Shown here: one piece after another, positions 6,740 to 49,395 of the stretch
How the letters are laid out: each line of letters starts with the position of its first letter
Numbering within the stretch: position 1 is the first letter of the stretch
DNA from: a virus
Reading direction: 5' to 3' (one strand)
Length of the DNA stretch: 59,958 nt
Virus record (IMG/VR): IMGVR_UViG_3300005584_000003
Coordinates: 1-59,958 of that record
Position numbers and translations under genes: made by a program
The notes under the pieces: generated by a model
What the model was told of the DNA's origin: nothing
The model's input: only the letters and a program-made list of their open reading frames with translations
The model's database searches: none

Positions 6740-6928
6740 CTATACATTATGAGCACTACGCTGTGGTAAAGGGAAGCTGTTGGTGGGTGTATCGAGCTTA
6801 TCGGCTCTTTGAAAGAATTCCTTGGCGTAGGCCTGAAATATCATTCGGGCCGTTGTAGATGTAAGGAAGAGGGAACCGTTCCACAGGGCATAGGCAATAC
6901 GGCGGTAGTCATCGGCGTCTGGGCTCAT
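6740..6928 (-). CDS. Small protein coupled to GroEL
   Basis: A 62-residue protein whose ATG overlaps the GroEL stop (ATGA, 6925-6928). It begins [16 protein letters not shown] and is mainly helical with a basic/aromatic middle. It has no GroES mobile loop or beta-barrel pattern, so it is not a co-chaperonin by sequence. A longer frame starting at 6988 would overlap GroEL and is rejected. The tight coupling suggests a related role or simple operon packing. Confidence 0.5.
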   Translation of the reverse strand: MSPDADDYRRIAYALWNGSLFLTSTTARMIFQAYAKEFFQRADKLDTPTNSFPLPQRSAHNV

Positions 6929-8529
6929 GATTCTCGGAATGGGTTTTCTTCGGTTGGGGCGTTGGTTGGGGCAATAATGATCATGCACTCCGTTGTTAGC
7001 AGCAATCCAGCGATGCTAGCGGCGTTTTGCAGGGCATTTCTGGTGACTTTGGTAGGATCTACCACCCCGGCCTTCAATAGGTCCTCAATTTGACCCGTAG
7101 CCACGTTGTAGCCCATGTCCTGTGATGCAAGGGTTACGTCGCGGACAATGATCTGTTCGTCGACGCCAGCATTGCGGCACAGTTGGCGCAGCGGTGCTTC
7201 AATTGCGAGCATGACAATAGTGCGGCCAATGTCCTCATCGGGCGTCAGGTTGAGACAAAAAGCAGCATTGCTAGCGCGTATTAGGGCAATACCACCCCCC
7301 GCCACTATGCCCTCAGCCACAGCAGCCCGGGTTGCATGCAGCGCGTCCTCCACCCGGTCTTTCTTCTCACGCATTTCAGCTTCCGTAGGGGCGCCCACAC
7401 TGATAACAGCAATGCCACCCGACAGTTTGGCCAAACGACTAACAAAATGAGCCCGCTCAAAATCTGATTCCGAGCCCTTGACAAGTGAACGAATGTGAGC
7501 ACAGCGCGCTTCGACCTTTGCTTTATCGCCACTGCCCTTAACTATCGTAGTGCCATCCTCTTCTACCAAAATTCGAACAGCTGAACCAAGAGTTTTCTCA
7601 GTTACTGACTCAATTTTGTTAATTACATCATCAAAAACCAGCCCGCCCGTCATGACAGCAACGTCAGCAAGGATATCCGAGCGCAATTTGCCAAACGATG
7701 GGGATTTGATCACGGCAATATTGAGTTTGCCCCGTGATTTGTTCATGATAAGCGTATTAAGCGTCTCTGGATCAATGTCTTCGGCAATAATAAGCAGTGA
7801 TCGACCGTTAGATAGCTGGAGTGCAGGCAATATCTGAGAAATATTGGTGATCTTGCGCTCATAAATCAACACAAGCGCATCATCAAGAACGCATTGAGCT
7901 GTTTCTGCATTGGTTGCAAAGTGCGTACTAACATAACCACGATCTAATTGCATCCCTTCGACCACATCAAGCGTAGTTTCAATGGACTTGGCTTCTTCGA
8001 CCGTAATAGTACCGTCTTTGCCAACTCGCTCCATAGCATCAGCTATTAAATGACCAATCATTTCGTCCCAGTTGGCAGAAACGGTTGCTACTTGGCGGAT
8101 CTCTTCAGTGTTCTCAACGGGTTTGCTGATTTTTGCTAGATAGGCAACAGTTGCTTCAACCGTTTTATCAATTCCGCGTTTAATATGGACAGGACTGGCG
8201 CCACCATTGACCGCCTTTATGCCCTCCCGATAAATTGCTTCAGCCAAAACAGTAGCCGTGGTAGTGCCATCACCCGCAGCGTCTGAAGTTTTCATAGCAA
8301 CCTCTCGTACCAACTGGGCTCCTAAGTTTTCGTACTTGTCGGCCAGTTCAACTTCTTTGGCAACCGATACACCGTCCTTTGTTACGGTTGGCGGACCATA
8401 TGGCTTTTCAATAATAACATTACGGCCTTTAGGTCCAAGGGTTACAGCGACAGCGCGTGCAAGAGTTTGCACACCAGTCAGAATTTTAGCGCGAGCAGCG
8501 TCATTAAATAGCAATTGTTTAGCGGGCAT
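6925..8529 (-). CDS. groEL: GroEL-type chaperonin (Hsp60)
   Basis: A 534-residue, apparently complete group I chaperonin. The family forms double-ring ATPases that fold proteins in a closed cavity. Visible hallmarks are [18 protein letters not shown], the ATP motif [11 protein letters not shown] (near 85-95), [10 protein letters not shown], the apical segment [21 protein letters not shown] with the catalytic Asp near 395, VAGGG and DPTKVTR. Hydrophobic apical positions that bind substrate and GroES are largely kept. The GGM-repeat tail of bacterial GroEL is missing; the end is ENPFRES. No GroES gene is seen in the window. The phage may use host GroES, or the chaperonin may act alone as reported for some phage GroELs. 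The start at 8529 ([10 protein letters not shown]) matches the family; no Shine-Dalgarno sequence is seen. Confidence 0.95.
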
Positions 8530-15333: not shown

Positions 15334-17805
15334 ATGGCATCCTACGCTCCCCAAGACTCCACAATCCCGCCGACAAAAAGTCCGCAGACCTCGGGGACCG
15401 TCACTATTGAGGCCCCGCCGCTTACGGGCGGCAATAACCCTAAGCTAGACTTAGAGGCACGTTCAATTAGGACTACCGATCAAGCGTGGAACCTATGTAA
15501 ATCGACAGAATCCGCCAATAAGACGCGTTCTCAACGGGCAACCGTAATGGAGTTGGAATACACGGGTCAGGCGCCATATTCACAGGCAGATCAAGTTGAA
15601 AAAGCCAATAGTTGGCAGTCTAACACTAATACTGGCATTTTATCGGGAATTGTTGATAGAAAGACACTTAGGTTTATTAATGCAATTACAACTCAAGTGT
15701 ATTTAAGCCGGTCATCTCTTCCAACTACATGGCCAGATTGGAAGAAAAAAAGCGATCAATTTTGTATTCATACTACCCGAATGATTCAAGGGTGGAAGAA
15801 GTACTCTACCTTTGTTCCTGCTTTGGCGCGTGAAAACGTGTTACATGGTTATGCGTATGGCATTTTTATGGATCCATATACGTGGACACCCCGCATGTTT
15901 AAACAGGATGTTGCGTATGTACCCGATGAAGCCTCTCAGTACGCAAACGAACTTCAGTTTTTTGTCATTAAACAAGACTTTCTTCTCCATGAATTCATCG
16001 ATATGTTTAAAGATGAAACTGCGGCAGAAGACATGGGGTATAACCTAAAGAATTGTATTGAGGCTGCCAATAAATCGGAGGTTAAGAACCCCCGTGAGGA
16101 CATGTTAACTACGGAATTCCGCAAATTTGCTGAATTTATTAGCGATGGTGTACTTGGTTTGACGTATTCTGTTAGCGGCCCACGCGTAGTTAAGACGTAT
16201 TTGTTGTGGAACCGGGAATATGACGGCAAGGTATCGTTTTGGATCCTACTTCGCGACAATGGTAAACTATTACGCTTTGCAGAGAAGATCTACAATAGTT
16301 TTGATGACGTTGTAACGCTATTTAGCTTCCAACCCGGCAATGGTCATTTGCATTCCTCTAAGGGCATTGGTCGCATGATCATTGGTAATGTTAAAATTGC
16401 CGAAAAGATCCGTAACAAGATGGTGGACAACATTAATATGTCCTCGCTTGTTATTTTAAAGGCCGACACTGCTAATAGAAACAAGCTACAACCTGTTGTA
16501 CATGCGCCATTTGTAGTTATTGATAAATCTATTGAGGTTGATCAACAGCGGTTTAGTGCAGACGGTGACATGTACGCCAATTTGGATCAACGGTTGGTAA
16601 ATTACATGGAGCAAACTGCTGGCGCGTATATTAGCGCCAATCCTAATGGCTTGGGTCAGCCGGTTACGGCTACGGAGGCCTCGCAGGACGCAAAACGCGA
16701 ACAAGAGAACTCCGATATTACCGAAACGCGTTGGCGCGATCAAATATCGCAGCTTGTTCAATCAATGCAAATGCGTGCATTCTCTGATGATAACGTCAGT
16801 GAGGCTAAACGTGTATTTACCGCTCTTACTAAAGAATTTGTAGGTCAAATTGATCAAACGGGCGCAGAAAACCCAGAAGATAAGCCAACGGTTAATAAAA
16901 CGCTCACCAAGTTGTTAGGTAACAACGACGAAGACAATCAGCCTATCCGGGTTCTTGTTAATATGTTTATTGACGGGTTAACGGAGCAAGAAATCAAACT
17001 CCTGCGTGATGCCCCCACTTCCGGTTATGCTCATACAGATGATGCCATTGTGGCGCAGGGCATTCTGGCGGTCGGTAAGATGTACGCCGGAAACCCCAAT
17101 CTGGACCAATCTGAGCTTACCCGTCGTGGTGTTGAGGCCTTGGCTGGCCCTGATGCCGCAAAGGCCCTTATTATCCCTAACGTTGACCAGACGATTACTG
17201 CTGAAGCTGGTCGTATGCAGCAGCAAGAGATTGTTACTATGATGAGTTTAATGCAGCCAGTTGCTGTATCTCCTCGCGATAATCATCTTATTCATGCTCA
17301 AGTTACTCAGGGCATGCTAGTTATTAATGGTCAGAAACTTAGCGACCTTAAAGAAGGCGAACGTTTTCTTAAGCCCACCGAGTTGTTGATCAATCATATG
17401 GCGGAACATTTGGCTCAATATTTGGCCCAAGGTAATCCTAGCCAAAACCCTGATTTCAAGAAACTTAACGATTTCTATAAACAATTTAAGGTGGATTTTG
17501 CCAAAGCAGTACAAATCCACGAAAAGAACAAGGCCATGAATCAAATGGCACAACAGGGTTATTCACCAGAAGCTATTGAGGCAATGTCTAACATGCAGGA
17601 AGATCTTCCCGGCGATATTGGTGGTGGCATTGGCGCCCCACCTAATTCTCCTGATCAAGGCATGAAACAAGGTGGACCTGACGTTGAAGCGGTACAAACT
17701 GCACTTGCTCGCGAAGCAGGGGAACTATCTCCCGATAAAATAGAAGAACGTCAAAAGCGTACATATACCCGTCAAATCACCCCGACTGAGCCAGCCGCAC
17801 AATGA
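15334..17805 (+). CDS. Portal protein
   Basis: An 823-residue protein after the terminase and before the scaffold, as expected for the portal, the dodecameric ring at the head vertex through which DNA is packaged and ejected. Features are an N-terminal Gly/Pro-rich arm, a long alpha/beta body including GIGRMIIGNVKIAEKI, TEASQDAKREQ near 445-460, and a helical region through 650-750 with a Gln/Pro/Gly-rich C-terminus. The size is that of podovirus-type portals. Assignment rests on gene order, size and overall pattern; no single invariant motif decides it. Confidence 0.65.
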   Translation: MASYAPQDSTIPPTKSPQTSGTVTIEAPPLTGGNNPKLDLEARSIRTTDQAWNLCKSTESANKTRSQRATVMELEYTGQAPYSQADQVEKANSWQSNTNTGILSGIVDRKTLRFINAITTQVYLSRSSLPTTWPDWKKKSDQFCIHTTRMIQGWKKYSTFVPALARENVLHGYAYGIFMDPYTWTPRMFKQDVAYVPDEASQYANELQFFVIKQDFLLHEFIDMFKDETAAEDMGYNLKNCIEAANKSEVKNPREDMLTTEFRKFAEFISDGVLGLTYSVSGPRVVKTYLLWNREYDGKVSFWILLRDNGKLLRFAEKIYNSFDDVVTLFSFQPGNGHLHSSKGIGRMIIGNVKIAEKIRNKMVDNINMSSLVILKADTANRNKLQPVVHAPFVVIDKSIEVDQQRFSADGDMYANLDQRLVNYMEQTAGAYISANPNGLGQPVTATEASQDAKREQENSDITETRWRDQISQLVQSMQMRAFSDDNVSEAKRVFTALTKEFVGQIDQTGAENPEDKPTVNKTLTKLLGNNDEDNQPIRVLVNMFIDGLTEQEIKLLRDAPTSGYAHTDDAIVAQGILAVGKMYAGNPNLDQSELTRRGVEALAGPDAAKALIIPNVDQTITAEAGRMQQQEIVTMMSLMQPVAVSPRDNHLIHAQVTQGMLVINGQKLSDLKEGERFLKPTELLINHMAEHLAQYLAQGNPSQNPDFKKLNDFYKQFKVDFAKAVQIHEKNKAMNQMAQQGYSPEAIEAMSNMQEDLPGDIGGGIGAPPNSPDQGMKQGGPDVEAVQTALAREAGELSPDKIEERQKRTYTRQITPTEPAAQ

Positions 17806-42619: not shown

Positions 42620-42946
42620 ATGAATAATGAGTTTTATACCTCCCCGGAAAGAAAATGTAGATTTTCTATTGATTATGTTACCCCCGGGGCACAAGGGCTG
42701 GCGTGGGCGATCCTATTAAAAGCCGTTGAGGATGGGTGTTCTAAGGAGTGGTTAGTCGCTATTGTTCAATATTATGGAATTGATTTTGATGAAAAATTAT
42801 TTGAACGCCTCCCTATGAATAAAATTAAAATGATGAATAAAAATCACGAAATGATTGGCATTCAATTTTCCGCCCCCAAGGAAAAGGAATGTTTGTTAAG
42901 TATGCACGACGGTCTTCATATCAGAGGCTTACTGGACCTTGCCTGA
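42620..42946 (+). CDS. Hypothetical protein, 108 residues
   Basis: A protein beginning [19 protein letters not shown] with a helical middle ([27 protein letters not shown]) and a beta-rich end. No family is recognised. It lies between the capsid promoter region and the S74 collagen fibre; the fibre's -35 box lies in its last codons. A fibre-associated role is possible from position only. Confidence 0.5.
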
Positions 42947-42967
42947 TGATGGGGCTTTTGTTAATCT
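42939..42967 (+). promoter_or_regulatory. Leaderless-type promoter for the S74 fibre
   Basis: TTGCCT-17-TAATCT with 7 nt to the ATG at 42975. The TTG could be mistaken for a start codon in frame; the promoter geometry argues that ATG 42975 is the start. Confidence 0.45.
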
Positions 42968-42974
42968 AACCAGC

Positions 42975-45900
42975 ATGTCTTGTACATCTTGCGCAACTCC
43001 TGTTTGGTGTACCCCGCCTAATTTTGATATTATATTTCCTGATCTGATTGGGCCGACCGGCGCATCTGGTTGTACTGGATCAACTGGGCCTATCGGTCCT
43101 ACAGGTCCACAAGGGACAACTGGTCCCACAGGTATCATGGGGCCTAGTGGTCCGACTGGTACGACAGGTCCAACAGGTCCGCAAGGAACGACAGGTCCTA
43201 CGGGCTTACAGGGCACTACAGGTCCTACCGGAACTACCGGCCCGACTGGAACGACGGGTCCGACCGGACCCATGGGTACAACAGGTCCGACGGGCACCAC
43301 AGGCCCAACCGGGCCACAAGGTACGACGGGTCCAATGGGTACTACCGGTCCTACGGGGCTTATGGGGCCAACAGGACCACAGGGTACTACTGGGCCTACT
43401 GGTTTGATTGGACCGACAGGATTGCAGGGTACAACCGGCCCTACGGGTGGAACAGGTCCAATTGGTTCAACCGGCCCAACAGGTGCTAGCGGTATTCAGG
43501 GCGTACAAGGCACCACTGGACCAACGGGTATTCAAGGTGAGCAAGGTACTACGGGTGCTACTGGTGTACAGGGCACGACGGGACCAACAGGCTTACAAGG
43601 TACGACTGGACCCACCGGCCCGCAGGGTGATCGTTATTCGACCATTAGTACAACCAGTTTAGCCATTCCATCAATTGGTAATACAGTTACATTAACCGTT
43701 GAAGTTGGATTGGCTTATACGGCGGCTCAAGAAGTTGTCGTTCAATATGACGAAACAAATCATTTTAATTTAGACCTAACGAGCTATAATTATGCTACAG
43801 GTGTTATGGTTGGCGTGGTTACGCACACTGCTGGTAGCGGTACGTATGCATCATGGACGGTTAATCTATCTGGTATTGTCGGCGCACCCGGTGCAACCGG
43901 CGTAACAGGTCCAACGGGTATCGCTGGTCCAACAGGACCAGAAGGAAGCACTGGCCCAACTGGATTACAAGGATCTACGGGACCACAGGGTATTACCGGC
44001 CCACAAGGAACTACTGGGGCTACTGGGTCTACTGGTGCTGGTGTGACGGGCGCTACTGGTCCTACAGGTGTTAACGGAGCAGTCGGTGCAACCGGTGTTA
44101 TGGGACCAACTGGCACGCAAGGTGTTACAGGACCTGTTGGTGTTACTGGAGCTACCGGTGTCATTGGTCTTACCGGTGGTACGGGCGCAACCGGCGTACA
44201 GGGCATACAGGGCGCCACGGGCATACAAGGCCCATCAGGTGCTACTGGTGCGACGGGTGTCGTTGGCATTAGCGGTGCTACGGGTATTGCGGGTCCTACT
44301 GGTCCATCGGGGGCTACGGGTGCTGCTGGTCCGGGGACTACCATTACAACCACGGATGATTTGGCCTCAACGGCACTCTATCCGGTGATGGTAACGGCGG
44401 TTGGATCCGCCACCACTCCAAAGACAACGGCTAGCAAATTATCATTTAATGCTAGTACGGGCGCACTCGCAATCACTGGCACCGTCAGCGCGGTCGGCGG
44501 CTTTGGCACGATACAGATGCTAAAGTCCTCTAATTTTGGTTATAGCACCTCTTATGGTGCCGCCGTTATTGGTGCTACTTCGGGTAGCGTGACAGTATGT
44601 TTAGGTGTGGACCCTATCGCAAATGCATCAGGATCATTTAATGGAAATGGCAGCGAGATAATGGTCAGGAATGTTGGATCGTTTATATCACCAACGGCAG
44701 CCAATACCTCTTATTATGGTATTATGTCATGGGGTGCGGGGACTGTTACTTTCCCGAATACGGTAACAGCAAATATCACGGGATCGTCAGGTTCCTGCAC
44801 GGGTAATGCGGCAACGGCTACTCTAGCAGCAAACTCAACGTTGGCCGGTGGATTTACTCCGACAACCGCTGGTACAGCATCAACTATTTGTGTAAGGGAT
44901 GGTGGTAATCACTTAACCATTGGCGGGTATTATTTTGGGCAGTATATCAATACTACGGATAACGTAGAGACAGGGACCATAACTCACATTATGGCTAAGT
45001 TTGGGGATAATTATCATCGTTCTGCAACAGCCGCAAAGGTTGCTACTTTTATAAGTGGGCAAAGCATGAACATCAGCGGAAGCTCAACTTCCTGCTCGGG
45101 TAATGCTGCAACGGCTACCACGGCTACCACCTCATCTGGACTTAACGGGACCGCCACCGCGACTAGGTTCTCATGGACTGCGGCACAAGTATACCAAATA
45201 GACAACTCCGGTGGTGGCCTCGGTGGATTCGAGGTAACCGGTGGGGGTGCGTCGTACCCCGCATTCATTTCGTTCCATCGTCCCGGTGCCTTCGCAGGCT
45301 ACTTCGGATTGGATACCGATAATCAATGGACCTACGGCGGCTGGTCGTGGGGCGCGGCAAAATACAAGTTCCTGACCTCGGCTAACTATACTACATACGC
45401 GCTTCCGTTGAGTGGCGGCACGCTAACTGGTGCATTAACGATCAACGGAACCACGCTTACTGTTGGCAATACTTCGTCCAGCAATATTAACATGGTGGAC
45501 ACGGATGAGGGCACACGAACCATCCACTGTAATTCTAATCGCATTGGTTTTCTGAATCAAGCTGGTGGATGGGGCGCGTACTGCGACGATTCTGGCAACT
45601 GGGCAGCAAACAACTTATCAGGAACGAACACTGGGGATCAGACCAATATTAGCGGCAGTGCGGCTTCGGCTACTTTCTTAAATAGCAGCAATTATATTAA
45701 TCGATGTGGTTCGAGCGGAAACGCAAATACCGATTTCAATAACTCACCAGCAGGGGCAGTTCGTCATAATGGCGACGACGCGAATTTAACAAATAGCCCC
45801 GGTGGCACTTGGTGGTTTTACGACAACTATCGCCACTCTAACAGCAGTAATTATTGGGGAACTCAAGTAGCTTGGGGTTGGGAAGATAATTCTGCCAGAT

Positions 45901-46295
45901 TATGTCAAAGAAATGTTAGTGGAGGAAGCTGGGGCGCATGGGTTGAGTATTTAAACACTGGGGGAAGAACATTTAGCGGAAGCCTTACAATGTCGGCCAA
46001 CATAACCGCTTATTCTGATTTATCATTGAAGGAGAATATAGAGTTAATCCCCAATGCGTTAAACAAATTAAAAACTTTACGCGGCGTTACATTTACGAGG
46101 AACGATCTCGAAGATAAAACCAAACGCCACACTGGTATTATTGCTCAAGAGGTTGAAGCAATTCTGCCCGAAGCAGTGCTCACTGACGAAAAAGGGATCA
46201 AGAGTGTTGCTTATGGCAACATGGTTGGGCTGCTGATCGAAGCCATCAAGGAACTCCACGCAGAAGTTGCCGCGCTAAAGAAGGGCGACTGCTGA
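42975..46295 (+). CDS. Collagen-like tail fibre with S74 chaperone domain
   Basis: An 1106-residue protein. The start is Cys-rich ([12 protein letters not shown]), followed by two Gly-X-Y blocks (about 26-219 and 303-456, mostly GPTG and GTTG) separated by a beta domain of about 85 residues. Fibre repeats follow with [14 protein letters not shown] and [10 protein letters not shown] motifs. The last ~95 residues match the intramolecular chaperone auto-processing domain (peptidase S74): [10 protein letters not shown] with the Ser1014-Lys1019 pair, [17 protein letters not shown] and a coiled-coil end. S74 domains trimerise fibres and then cleave themselves off just before the Ser. It is a probable receptor-binding fibre. 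An in-frame TTG at 42939 would overlap the upstream gene and is rejected. Confidence 0.85.
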
Positions 46296-46345: not shown

Positions 46346-47242
46346 ATGACGTTACCATTAGGCACAATTTCGATGTCTCTGGTGAATATTGAACTGGGAT
46401 TAAGTGCAACCGCAACCATTTCACTCAATCAGGCTGCGGTTCGCACACTTGCTGGTGTTCCAAGTGGAGCAATATCAATGTCTAATCTACAGGGTAAATC
46501 CAACACTTATGTTGTTAATTACGTGATAGTTGCTGGGGGCGGAGGGGGCGGGATGCAACATGCAGGAGGCGGAGGTGGTGGTGGTCTTATAAGTGGTTCT
46601 GCAAACGTAAGCCCCGGAACAGCTTACGCTTTGAATGTTGGCGGAGCGGGAACGGGATGCACCGGATATAATGCTCAAGGTGGAGCATGGCTGGGATTCA
46701 ACGGCGGTAACTCATCTGGATTTGGAGTTACCTGCTATGGCGGTGGCACCGGCAATGGTGGCCCCGGGGCGGCTGGCGGATGCGGTGGTGGTGGTGGTTA
46801 TCCGAATGAAACTAGCGGCGGAGCTGGAGTTGCTGGTCAGGGGTTTGCGGGAAATACAGCTAGCACTGGTAGTATATACAACGGTGGTGGTGGAGGTGGC
46901 GGAGAACAAGCCGGTCAAGGTCAGAATGGAGGAACGGGCGCCGTTGGGTGGTGGACACGATATACCGGAGGTGGCGGTGGCGGATACGGCGGAGGAACGG
47001 GCGGATCATACGGCGGCGGCAATGGCGGAGGCGGGTCAGCTTCTGGTCAGGCCGCATTTAATTGGGGTTGCGGTGGTGGCGGTGGCGGCAATTTAGGTGT
47101 TGGCCAAGGCGGCAATGGCTATCAAGGTGTTTGCCGACTTTACTACGCTGGCAACCAAAGGGGAACCGGTGGTCAATCAATATATACAACCGGAGGTAAC
47201 ACTTATCATGATTTTGGTGCTTCGGGAAACTACACAGCTTAA
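46346..47242 (+). CDS. Glycine-rich adhesin-like protein
   Basis: A 298-residue protein. After about 60 ordinary residues (MTLPLGTISMSLVNIE), residues 62-290 are dominated by runs of Gly (GGGGGGG, GGGSGGG) between short variable loops. This resembles the glycine-rich domain of phage adhesins and gp38-type fibre tips, where polyglycine helices pack into a sheet and variable loops bind receptor. It directly follows the S74 fibre and is likely a fibre tip or adhesin. Antisense frames over it are artefacts of the repeats. Confidence 0.75.
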   Translation: MTLPLGTISMSLVNIELGLSATATISLNQAAVRTLAGVPSGAISMSNLQGKSNTYVVNYVIVAGGGGGGMQHAGGGGGGGLISGSANVSPGTAYALNVGGAGTGCTGYNAQGGAWLGFNGGNSSGFGVTCYGGGTGNGGPGAAGGCGGGGGYPNETSGGAGVAGQGFAGNTASTGSIYNGGGGGGGEQAGQGQNGGTGAVGWWTRYTGGGGGGYGGGTGGSYGGGNGGGGSASGQAAFNWGCGGGGGGNLGVGQGGNGYQGVCRLYYAGNQRGTGGQSIYTTGGNTYHDFGASGNYTA

Positions 47243-47253
47243 TATTTATCATT

Positions 47254-47640
47254 ATGAATGCTCCTCCTATATCTCAAACAGTTAACTTTGCTTACGTTGG
47301 TGAGGACAGCATTGTTAAAAATGTTGCATGTCTTCCTAACTATACGCCGACCAAAGAAGGCATTGAATATTTAATTTCCGCCCATGCTCATGAGGAAGAA
47401 TACAATGTTCCGAATGGCGCTTGGTATCGTCAGGATTTAACAGATCCTAAAAGAAAGGCTGCTGGAATTGGGGCGACGTATGATTCAGAATTAGATGCAT
47501 TTATTCCCGTATCTTTTTTTCCTTCATGGACGCTTAACAAAGAAACATACGAATGGACTCCTCCTACGCCACAGCCATCACCATTTCATGCTTGGGATGA
47601 GAAAACTCAAAGTTGGGTGAAGGTATACCCGGACGTTTAA
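47254..47640 (+). CDS. Fibre-region hypothetical protein
   Basis: A 128-residue protein with VNFAYVGEDSIVKNV, a His/Glu-rich middle (AHAHEEEYNVPNGAWYRQDL) and a C-terminus in the style of aquatic phage proteins: FPSWTLNKETYEWTPPTP followed by WDEKTQSWV. This W-rich PP-WDE ending recurs next to fibre genes in cyanophages and similar phages. Function is unknown; it may bind or assemble fibres. Confidence 0.55.
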   Translation: MNAPPISQTVNFAYVGEDSIVKNVACLPNYTPTKEGIEYLISAHAHEEEYNVPNGAWYRQDLTDPKRKAAGIGATYDSELDAFIPVSFFPSWTLNKETYEWTPPTPQPSPFHAWDEKTQSWVKVYPDV

Positions 47641-47650
47641 CTTCGTCGTT

Positions 47651-47830
47651 ATGCTTGAGACGTATACACGTACGTTATTGCGTACTCTATCTTACCGAAT
47701 CTTAGCTTTATTGATTACTGCTGCTTGGACTGGTCTTGGAAGTGCGTTAATGATTCACTTTGTTCTTTTTCTGATGCAATATGTTGTTGAAAGAATTTGG
47801 CTTAAAATTCATTGGGGTCTAAACAAATAG
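47651..47830 (+). CDS. DUF2061-like small membrane protein
   Basis: A 59-residue membrane protein too short for usual ORF cut-offs. The order TRTLLRTLSYRILA, LITAAWTGLGSALMI, FLMQYVVERIWLKI and HWG matches DUF2061: a Lys/Arg-Thr start, a Tyr/Trp-Arg motif, two hydrophobic segments and an (E)R-(I/V)W-xxI-WG end. DUF2061 proteins occur in bacteria near sulfate assimilation genes and in marine phages; the function is unknown. It sits immediately before the halogenase gene. A TTGGGT-17-TTTAAC pair lies upstream. Confidence 0.7.
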   Translation: MLETYTRTLLRTLSYRILALLITAAWTGLGSALMIHFVLFLMQYVVERIWLKIHWGLNK

Positions 47831-47835
47831 GCGCG

Positions 47836-49395
47836 ATGAAAACTCTAAACGATAAAGATTTTAATTTTGTTGTTGTTGGTGGTGGCGTGGCTGGATGGTT
47901 TGCAGCCCTTACCCTGCAAAAATCATATCCCGGAACAACAATTACCGTTGTTGAGAGTTCTAAGATTGGTTCAGTTGGTGTCGGGGAAAGCACAACCCCG
48001 CAGATCATTCAACTTTTTGATGAGCTTGGTATTTCTGTTTCCGACCTATTGAAACATACGAATGCTACCATCAAGAATGGCATTAAGTTTACTAACTGGC
48101 ATGGGGACGGTAAACACTTCTTTCATGGATTTGGCTCGATCCCAGAGTTAAGCTACGAGCATTCAACTCTATTGAATCATTGTGATGTGCCACTCCTTGC
48201 CCTGCAAGCAATTGCTTCTGGCAATTCTTTAGATGAGGTTGAGCTTTCCGCAATTGCATCAGAAAAGAATCAATTAAAATTCATCAAAAATGGAAGCATT
48301 GATTCAAACTCGAATAAGATATTTCACTTCAAAAACCTTGGAAACTTTGCTGTTCATTTTGATGCGGATCAAATGATCAAATACCTGAGAAGCATTGGGG
48401 TTGATAGGGGAATCAACACTGTTGATGCCATTGTTTTGGGGGCCGAAGAAAACAGCGAAGGTTATATAAAGAAAATACTTTTGAAAGGTGGATCAATGAA
48501 ATGCGATTTTGTAATAGACGCATCTGGCTTTAGTCGTCTTTTGATCGGCAAGCACTTTAATGGTTTTTGGAAGAGCTACCGCGCCCATCTTCCAATTAAA
48601 CGAGCTATTCCTTTCCATCTTCCCATCGATGCTGAAAAGATCCCGCCTTATACGGAAGCGGTTGCAATGAAGTATGGGTGGATGTGGAAGATTCCGGTTC
48701 AGGATCGATTTGGGTGTGGTTACACATTTGATTCGGACTATATCTCCGATGAAGAAGCCCATAGTGAAATCGAGGAAGCAGTAGGGCAGAAAGTAGACGT
48801 TCGTAAGATCCTTGATTTTGATGGCGGCGCCTACACTCGCCCTTGGGTAAAAAACTGTATGGCCATTGGTCTTGCATCGGCCTTTATTGAGCCACTTGAA
48901 TCAACGGCTATTTGGATCGGCATACAAACGATGAAGAGCTTCCTAGCGAACATAAAAGGACTTACGCATTGTTCTCAGGCTCATATAGATCAACATAACA
49001 GCCGAGTTAATGTTATGGCCGATGAAGTTCTTACATTCGTACATCTTCACTATTTAACTGAAAGAAGTGACACTAAGTTTTGGCGTGATTTTAAGGTAAA
49101 TAACAGCCCACCCGAAATGATCTGTCGATTAAATGATGCCAATCGTGATATAACTCTTTTTTCGGATATTATGACTGGGTTCACTAATTCATTTACATTT
49201 GGCAGTTGGCAACACGTTGGCGCCGGGGTTCGTTTCTTCAATAAAGAACACGCAACTGCATCTTTGGAATCTTTTGTACTCGGAAATAGAATAAATCAGT
49301 ATCGCTATAAGTATGATTCACTTACAATGAACCTCAACTTTGTGAGAAATTCAATGGTTCATCACAGCGACTTCATTAAATACCTTAAATCTTAA
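47836..49395 (+). CDS. Flavin-dependent tryptophan-type halogenase
   Basis: A 519-residue FAD enzyme of the PrnA/RebH family, which uses reduced flavin, oxygen and halide to make hypohalous acid that halogenates an aromatic substrate. Visible: VVGGGVAGW (GxGxxG, about 14-21), VGVGESTTP, TIKNGIKF with Lys80 at the position of the catalytic Lys79, KYGWMWKIP (GWxWxIP hallmark, 281-287), and FIEPLESTAI with Glu355-Ser356 at the catalytic Glu/Ser position. All catalytic residues are present. No flavin reductase is seen, so the host would supply FADH2. The ATG at 47836 is preferred over a TTG at 47812. Cyanophages carry homologues, including a characterised viral halogenase. The substrate here is unknown. 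Confidence 0.9.
   Translation: MKTLNDKDFNFVVVGGGVAGWFAALTLQKSYPGTTITVVESSKIGSVGVGESTTPQIIQLFDELGISVSDLLKHTNATIKNGIKFTNWHGDGKHFFHGFGSIPELSYEHSTLLNHCDVPLLALQAIASGNSLDEVELSAIASEKNQLKFIKNGSIDSNSNKIFHFKNLGNFAVHFDADQMIKYLRSIGVDRGINTVDAIVLGAEENSEGYIKKILLKGGSMKCDFVIDASGFSRLLIGKHFNGFWKSYRAHLPIKRAIPFHLPIDAEKIPPYTEAVAMKYGWMWKIPVQDRFGCGYTFDSDYISDEEAHSEIEEAVGQKVDVRKILDFDGGAYTRPWVKNCMAIGLASAFIEPLESTAIWIGIQTMKSFLANIKGLTHCSQAHIDQHNSRVNVMADEVLTFVHLHYLTERSDTKFWRDFKVNNSPPEMICRLNDANRDITLFSDIMTGFTNSFTFGSWQHVGAGVRFFNKEHATASLESFVLGNRINQYRYKYDSLTMNLNFVRNSMVHHSDFIKYLKS

Follow-up and report, generated by a model that had tools for sequence, protein, structure and literature searches.

The halogenase gene and its neighbours

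The window, by which we mean the whole stretch of DNA analysed, is the complete IMG/VR record of 59,958 bases. It contains a gene for a flavin-dependent halogenase (FDH) located behind a group of tail genes, in the following order:

42939–46295, + strand: collagen-like tail fibre with a C-terminal S74 chaperone (Pfam, PHROG)
46346–47242, + strand: Gly-rich tail-type protein (PF21722), N-terminus MTLPLGTISMSLVNIELG, 4 Trp and 16 Tyr; candidate substrate by analogy
47254–47640, + strand: PHROG 7759 protein of unknown function, 128 aa (PHROG 7759, E=1.4e-15)
47651–47830, + strand: DUF2061-like membrane ORF, 59 aa (leave-one-out profile E=3.5e-6)
47836–49395, + strand: flavin-dependent halogenase (PF04820), 519 aa, with K80, E355 and GWMWKIP intact

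The halogenase ORF is unbroken and yields 519 aa from the ATG at 47836, which makes the TTG start at 47812 proposed by the ORF finder unnecessary. The Pfam search matched residues 11–473 to positions 2–450 of the 458 in the PF04820 model (E=5e-105), and PHROG 2928 ("tryptophan halogenase") was matched with an E-value of 4e-101. The characteristic motifs were located at G15/G17/G20 (GxGxxG), K80, 281–287 (GWMWKIP) and 352–356 (EPLES, which includes E355). An AlphaFold model built from 34 sequences (pLDDT 91) had PyrH and PrnA as its top Foldseek matches (~4e-41), and VIA-align superimposed it on PyrH (2wes) with Z 43.0 over 482 residues, on PrnA with Z ~40, on MibH with Z 38.7 and on the viral enzyme VirX1 (6qgm) with Z 37.5. 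By its PF04820 match, motifs, Lys/Glu pair and predicted fold the protein is assigned to the variant A FDHs. Thus, at the level of sequence, the preliminary description of a real and complete halogenase in a phage is confirmed. In line with its remark that no flavin reductase is encoded nearby, a Pfam scan of roughly 30 proteins of the window found none.

Conservation was assessed in an alignment of halogenases from 80 IMG/VR loci, which comprised 84 viral sequences. Lys 80 and Glu 355 are kept in 84/84, and the loss of these residues in relatives, named earlier as a finding that would speak against the enzyme, did not occur. Among the hallmark residues listed in the preliminary description, GxGxxG, K80, GWMWKIP and E355 are indeed found at their sites, but the Ser of "PLES" corresponds to Ala in 83/84 viral relatives and, judging from this alignment, is no hallmark of the viral group. 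The free-Trp halogenases PyrH, AbeH and Th-Hal possess a C-terminal YYHG segment, which we take to be a substrate segment; it is found neither in the window halogenase nor in any of the 84 aligned viral relatives, and this suggests a substrate other than free tryptophan. Compared with PrnA, PyrH and RebH, the window enzyme has the same predicted fold (Z ~40–43 to PrnA and PyrH), the GxGxxG and WxWxIP motifs and the catalytic Lys and Glu, but it is only about 26–30% identical to them and lacks the YYHG of the free-Trp enzymes.

Fibre genes on one side and lysis genes on the other were originally named as the surroundings of the halogenase. Upstream, the collagen/S74 fibre and the Gly-rich tail protein are confirmed, but the region 3' of the halogenase contains small membrane-type ORFs and a PHROG of "unknown function", and no lysis family was confirmed there by search. 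The order Gly-rich protein, PHROG 7759 protein, halogenase is identical in the window and in loci L007, L008 and L169, with an S74-type fibre end farther upstream in the window, L007 and L008. Relatives of the PHROG 7759 protein have a Gly-rich protein immediately 5' in 51/71 loci; none of 80 other PHROG 7759 loci carries a halogenase within 3 kb, which rules this protein out as a specific halogenase partner. A 94-aa membrane protein that is not found in the window adjoins the halogenase at 69/80 viral loci. The reciprocal scan found a halogenase at just 9/80 of its loci, so that it is a general aquatic-phage family rather than an obligate partner. Conserved Trp-rich membrane proteins of 94–117 aa, without a Pfam match, are widespread in aquatic phages (L168–L247). 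Elsewhere, the window also encodes a GroEL (6925–8529, PHROG 5725, E=3e-159).

Eight related phage contigs, recognised by 73–76% identity over the 823-aa protein encoded at 15334–17805, show no halogenase (the set includes fragments, and the site is covered by five). In the five site-covering relatives the flanking genes are kept, and the interval from the collagen fibre to the downstream conserved genes is variable; one of the related phages (L343) has two 2OG oxygenases in the same slot (E about 1e-27). The GC content is 0.36 in the 59-aa ORF and 0.406 in the halogenase, against 0.462 in the window. Given the relatives without the gene, the variable interval and the lower GC content, the halogenase is an accessory gene that occupies a variable tail/adhesin slot. 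As to its source, no donor was identified among the sampled host halogenases, the nearest cellular loci (L088–L090) being 37–40% identical and the rest 35% or less.

The DUF2061-like ORF upstream of the halogenase

The stop codon of the 59-aa ORF lies 5 nt before the halogenase ATG. Neither NCBIfam nor Pfam gave a match (Pfam none even at E<=10, with the gathering score of PF09834 not reached). A profile of viral DUF2061 sequences built without the window copy finds the ORF with E=3.5e-6 (25.9 bits), the next best non-member having E=1, and PF09834 itself is matched by 14/16 aligned members of that viral set (best 8e-23). The DUF2061 call made in the preliminary description is therefore plausible by profile similarity, if remote.

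Its further proposal, that this protein is a partner of the halogenase, could not be upheld. It looked strong going forward, since in many WhiB-bearing loci of freshwater phages a DUF2061-like ORF stands immediately upstream of the halogenase. In the reciprocal scan of 80 viral DUF2061 loci, the constant neighbour turned out to be an APS kinase, present within 3 kb in 77/80, with a halogenase in 15/80. No DUF2061 gene was found near the halogenase at any of 80 cellular or six isolate loci, most loci of the window's own halogenase clade are without it, and it is missing from the related phages of the window. An APS kinase was not found in the window. Because APS kinase accompanies viral DUF2061 genes far more often than a halogenase does, we reject the partner claim; the 59-aa ORF is probably a neighbour and not a required functional partner.

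In the freshwater phages L249–L328, DUF2061 recurrently follows an APS kinase-like gene (77/80 loci), and behind this pair lies variable cargo, at times a sulfotransferase-like gene or a halogenase. One run (L185, 138–3333) consists of an APS kinase, a DUF2061-like protein, a 2OG oxygenase, a halogenase and a membrane protein of the 94-aa type, and is followed by sulfotransferase-like genes. DUF2061-type proteins at L015 (2096–2314) and in MW202753.1 (L248) have endolysin-like or holin/M15 peptidase genes as neighbours, a hint that they may act in lysis.

Viral relatives and RiPP-like cassettes of sister loci

As anticipated in the preliminary description, the window enzyme is related to cyanophage halogenases, although distantly. 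It falls into a virus-only clade (SH-aLRT 99) apart from VirX1, and its best isolate match is the halogenase of Pelagibacter phage HTVC008M (38% identity over 86%). In that phage a phytanoyl-CoA dioxygenase (2OG) gene comes before the halogenase, which, unlike that of the window, lies between terminase subunit genes; no rSAM or Cys-rich protein is annotated there. VirX1 of cyanophage Syn10 (6qgm) is likewise a viral FDH of the same fold, but it is just 26% identical and belongs to a different clade; it accepts many small aromatics in an open site and shows broad iodination in vitro, its native substrate not being given (PMC8407142). Other isolates have surroundings comparable to those of the window's clade: the halogenase is flanked by a tail fibre on one side and an adhesin tip on the other (S-SRM01), lies amid 2OG oxygenases (Sf-CH11) or stands behind collagen genes (DSL-LC01). 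Tandem halogenase genes occur in single phage loci, three in L058 and two in cyanophage Syn10 (L086).

Within the window's clade, 2OG oxygenases occur at 10/11 loci, and a tail-type protein with the motif "MTLPxSG", which was picked after inspection of the loci, lies within 3 kb at 8/11, versus 0–2 of 80 in controls. Linkage to a radical SAM (rSAM) gene was found for 29/35 rows of the clade, five of the 29 being the same sequence entered twice; Lys and Glu are kept in all sampled. Five clade loci have an operon that consists of a 2OG oxygenase, a Cys-rich small protein, an rSAM enzyme (PF04055), a protein of ~220 aa, the halogenase and a second 2OG oxygenase. The Cys-rich protein begins with MTLPxSG; its C-terminus is rich in Cys and has Trp as the last residue (..CACW or similar). 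The rSAM enzyme resembles RiPP maturases (PapB E=4e-23, CcpM 7.5e-18), with the cut-off reached by none.

Scans with the Cys-rich protein and with the rSAM enzyme gave a set in which 116 loci carry rSAM. Dereplication left 34 loci with a precursor upstream; among these, the C-terminal Trp and the halogenase occur together in 24/24 and are both missing in 10/10 (Fisher 7.6e-9). On the rSAM tree Trp and halogenase each change just twice, and the p-value therefore overstates independence; two founder events may lie behind the association. The halogenase of L436 is intact by tblastn. In L478 and L485 the Trp immediately precedes "SDDTLK", with which an S74-type chaperone domain begins, so that cleavage there would place it at the C-terminus, and the L485 precursor matches tail-fibre PHROGs. 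In L489 and L495 one protein unites the same N-terminus, a part rich in Gly and an end rich in Cys, and has neither the terminal Trp nor an accompanying halogenase.

Operons with a tail-type Cys-rich protein, an rSAM/SPASM enzyme and 2OG oxygenases were seen in L009, L013, L014, L020, L026 and ~25 further loci (L427–L515), and have a halogenase when the Cys-rich protein ends in Trp. Other viral rSAM loci (L497, L503, L506, L511 and others) have a Cys-rich domain downstream and no halogenase; this domain is fused to a longer C-terminal part (about 290–340 aa) that appears by eye to be of membrane type. A second radical SAM protein directly follows the halogenase in L013 (7523–9040, B12-type, best match TIGR04072) and in L434 (8934–10409, similar to that of L013 by eye).

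Possible role of the halogenase

We propose, with a probability of about 45%, that the halogenase is a working enzyme by which the phage tailors an aromatic residue of its own virion tail or adhesin protein. FADH2 made by the host would react with O2 to a flavin hydroperoxide, the halide would be oxidised and passed on via K80, and E355 would activate an aromatic side chain, that of a Trp or possibly a Tyr, in the virion protein, so that the tail tip would come to carry a halogenated residue. These steps are those established for the enzyme class: any reductase can supply the FADH2, a flavin hydroperoxide forms, the halide is oxidised, Lys transfers it and Glu activates the ring (PMC8407142). 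We infer catalysis, the macromolecular substrate and the action of the window enzyme on the adjoining Gly-rich or fibre protein.

A virion tail protein appears the likeliest target because of the sister cassettes and the precedent of SrpI, an FDH that brominates the C-terminal Trp of the Cys-rich RiPP core LCCCW (PMC10858898). This core is close to phage termini such as ..CACACW. The proteusin brominase SrpI and the lanthipeptide chlorinase MibH are both FDHs whose target Trp is in a ribosomal peptide; they differ in belonging to cellular RiPP pathways, whereas the precursor of the sister phages is a tail-type protein with rSAM. An adjacent precursor with a target Trp is present in 24 sister loci but absent from the window. 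Of the targets named in the preliminary description, a virion residue gains support from the relatives, but a peptidoglycan-linked one gains none. The Gly-rich protein (46346–47242) is the best candidate substrate in the window because of its position and of its N-terminal motif, which is common to the Cys-rich proteins of the sister loci. More tentatively, and possible rather than probable, the clade of aquatic-phage halogenases to which the window enzyme belongs may halogenate virion adhesins post-translationally, in the sister loci on the C-terminal Trp of an rSAM-matured Cys-rich tail-tip protein and in the window on an aromatic residue of the adjacent Gly-rich protein.

The tail-protein reading has to contend with the window itself, in which neither a Cys-rich precursor nor an rSAM enzyme or 2OG oxygenase was found and no complete ORF ends in Trp. 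It is also weakened by the fact that, in aquatic phages, tail regions serve generally as cargo-gene hotspots (PMC7029224), together with the 80 PHROG 7759 loci without a halogenase. The main rival makes use of exactly this: the halogenase would be an auxiliary metabolic gene acting during infection on a small molecule of the host, be it indole, free Trp, some pigment or a signal, and the tail site a mere cargo-accepting region. This is how phage halogenases are usually listed, with their role unknown (PMC10452541, PMC2984593), and it agrees with the small aromatics taken by VirX1 in its open site (PMC8407142), with the related phages that have no halogenase and with the deviating GC content. 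Against it stand the lack of biosynthetic partner genes nearby, the missing free-Trp C-terminal motif in all 84 viral relatives and the tie of the sister clade to peptide-maturation cassettes, and we regard a small-molecule role as possible but somewhat doubtful.

That the gene is a transient passenger without current use would fit its absence from the eight related phage records, five of them covering the site, but it is unlikely in view of an intact ORF with all catalytic residues retained and of a halogenase family broadly conserved in aquatic phages. Still less probable is a membrane module in which the DUF2061-like protein serves the halogenase as anchor or partner: the 5-nt spacing and the same arrangement in many freshwater, WhiB-bearing phages speak for it, but it is opposed by the reciprocal counts (77/80 with APS kinase, 15/80 with halogenase) and by the lack of DUF2061 at cellular and isolate halogenase loci and in most of the window's clade.

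Implications

Phage FDHs and FDHs acting on peptide Trp are already known separately. In the literature searched we found no description of a viral cassette joining an FDH to a tail-type Cys-rich protein, nor of halogenated residues on phage attachment proteins; one paper does mention that the host-recognition cluster of pelagiphages contains rSAM gene cassettes (PMC7029224). Ever since halogenases were first reported in cyanophages, the native substrate of such phage enzymes has been an open question, VirX1 having been described on non-native compounds, and the tie between the halogenase and the C-terminal Trp of a Cys-rich tail-type protein offers a concrete, testable substrate for the clade. 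If the proposal for tail proteins is true, halogenated residues, together with rSAM and perhaps 2OG chemistry, would be installed on phage attachment proteins, and aquatic phages would modify the organelle by which they attach with RiPP-like chemistry.
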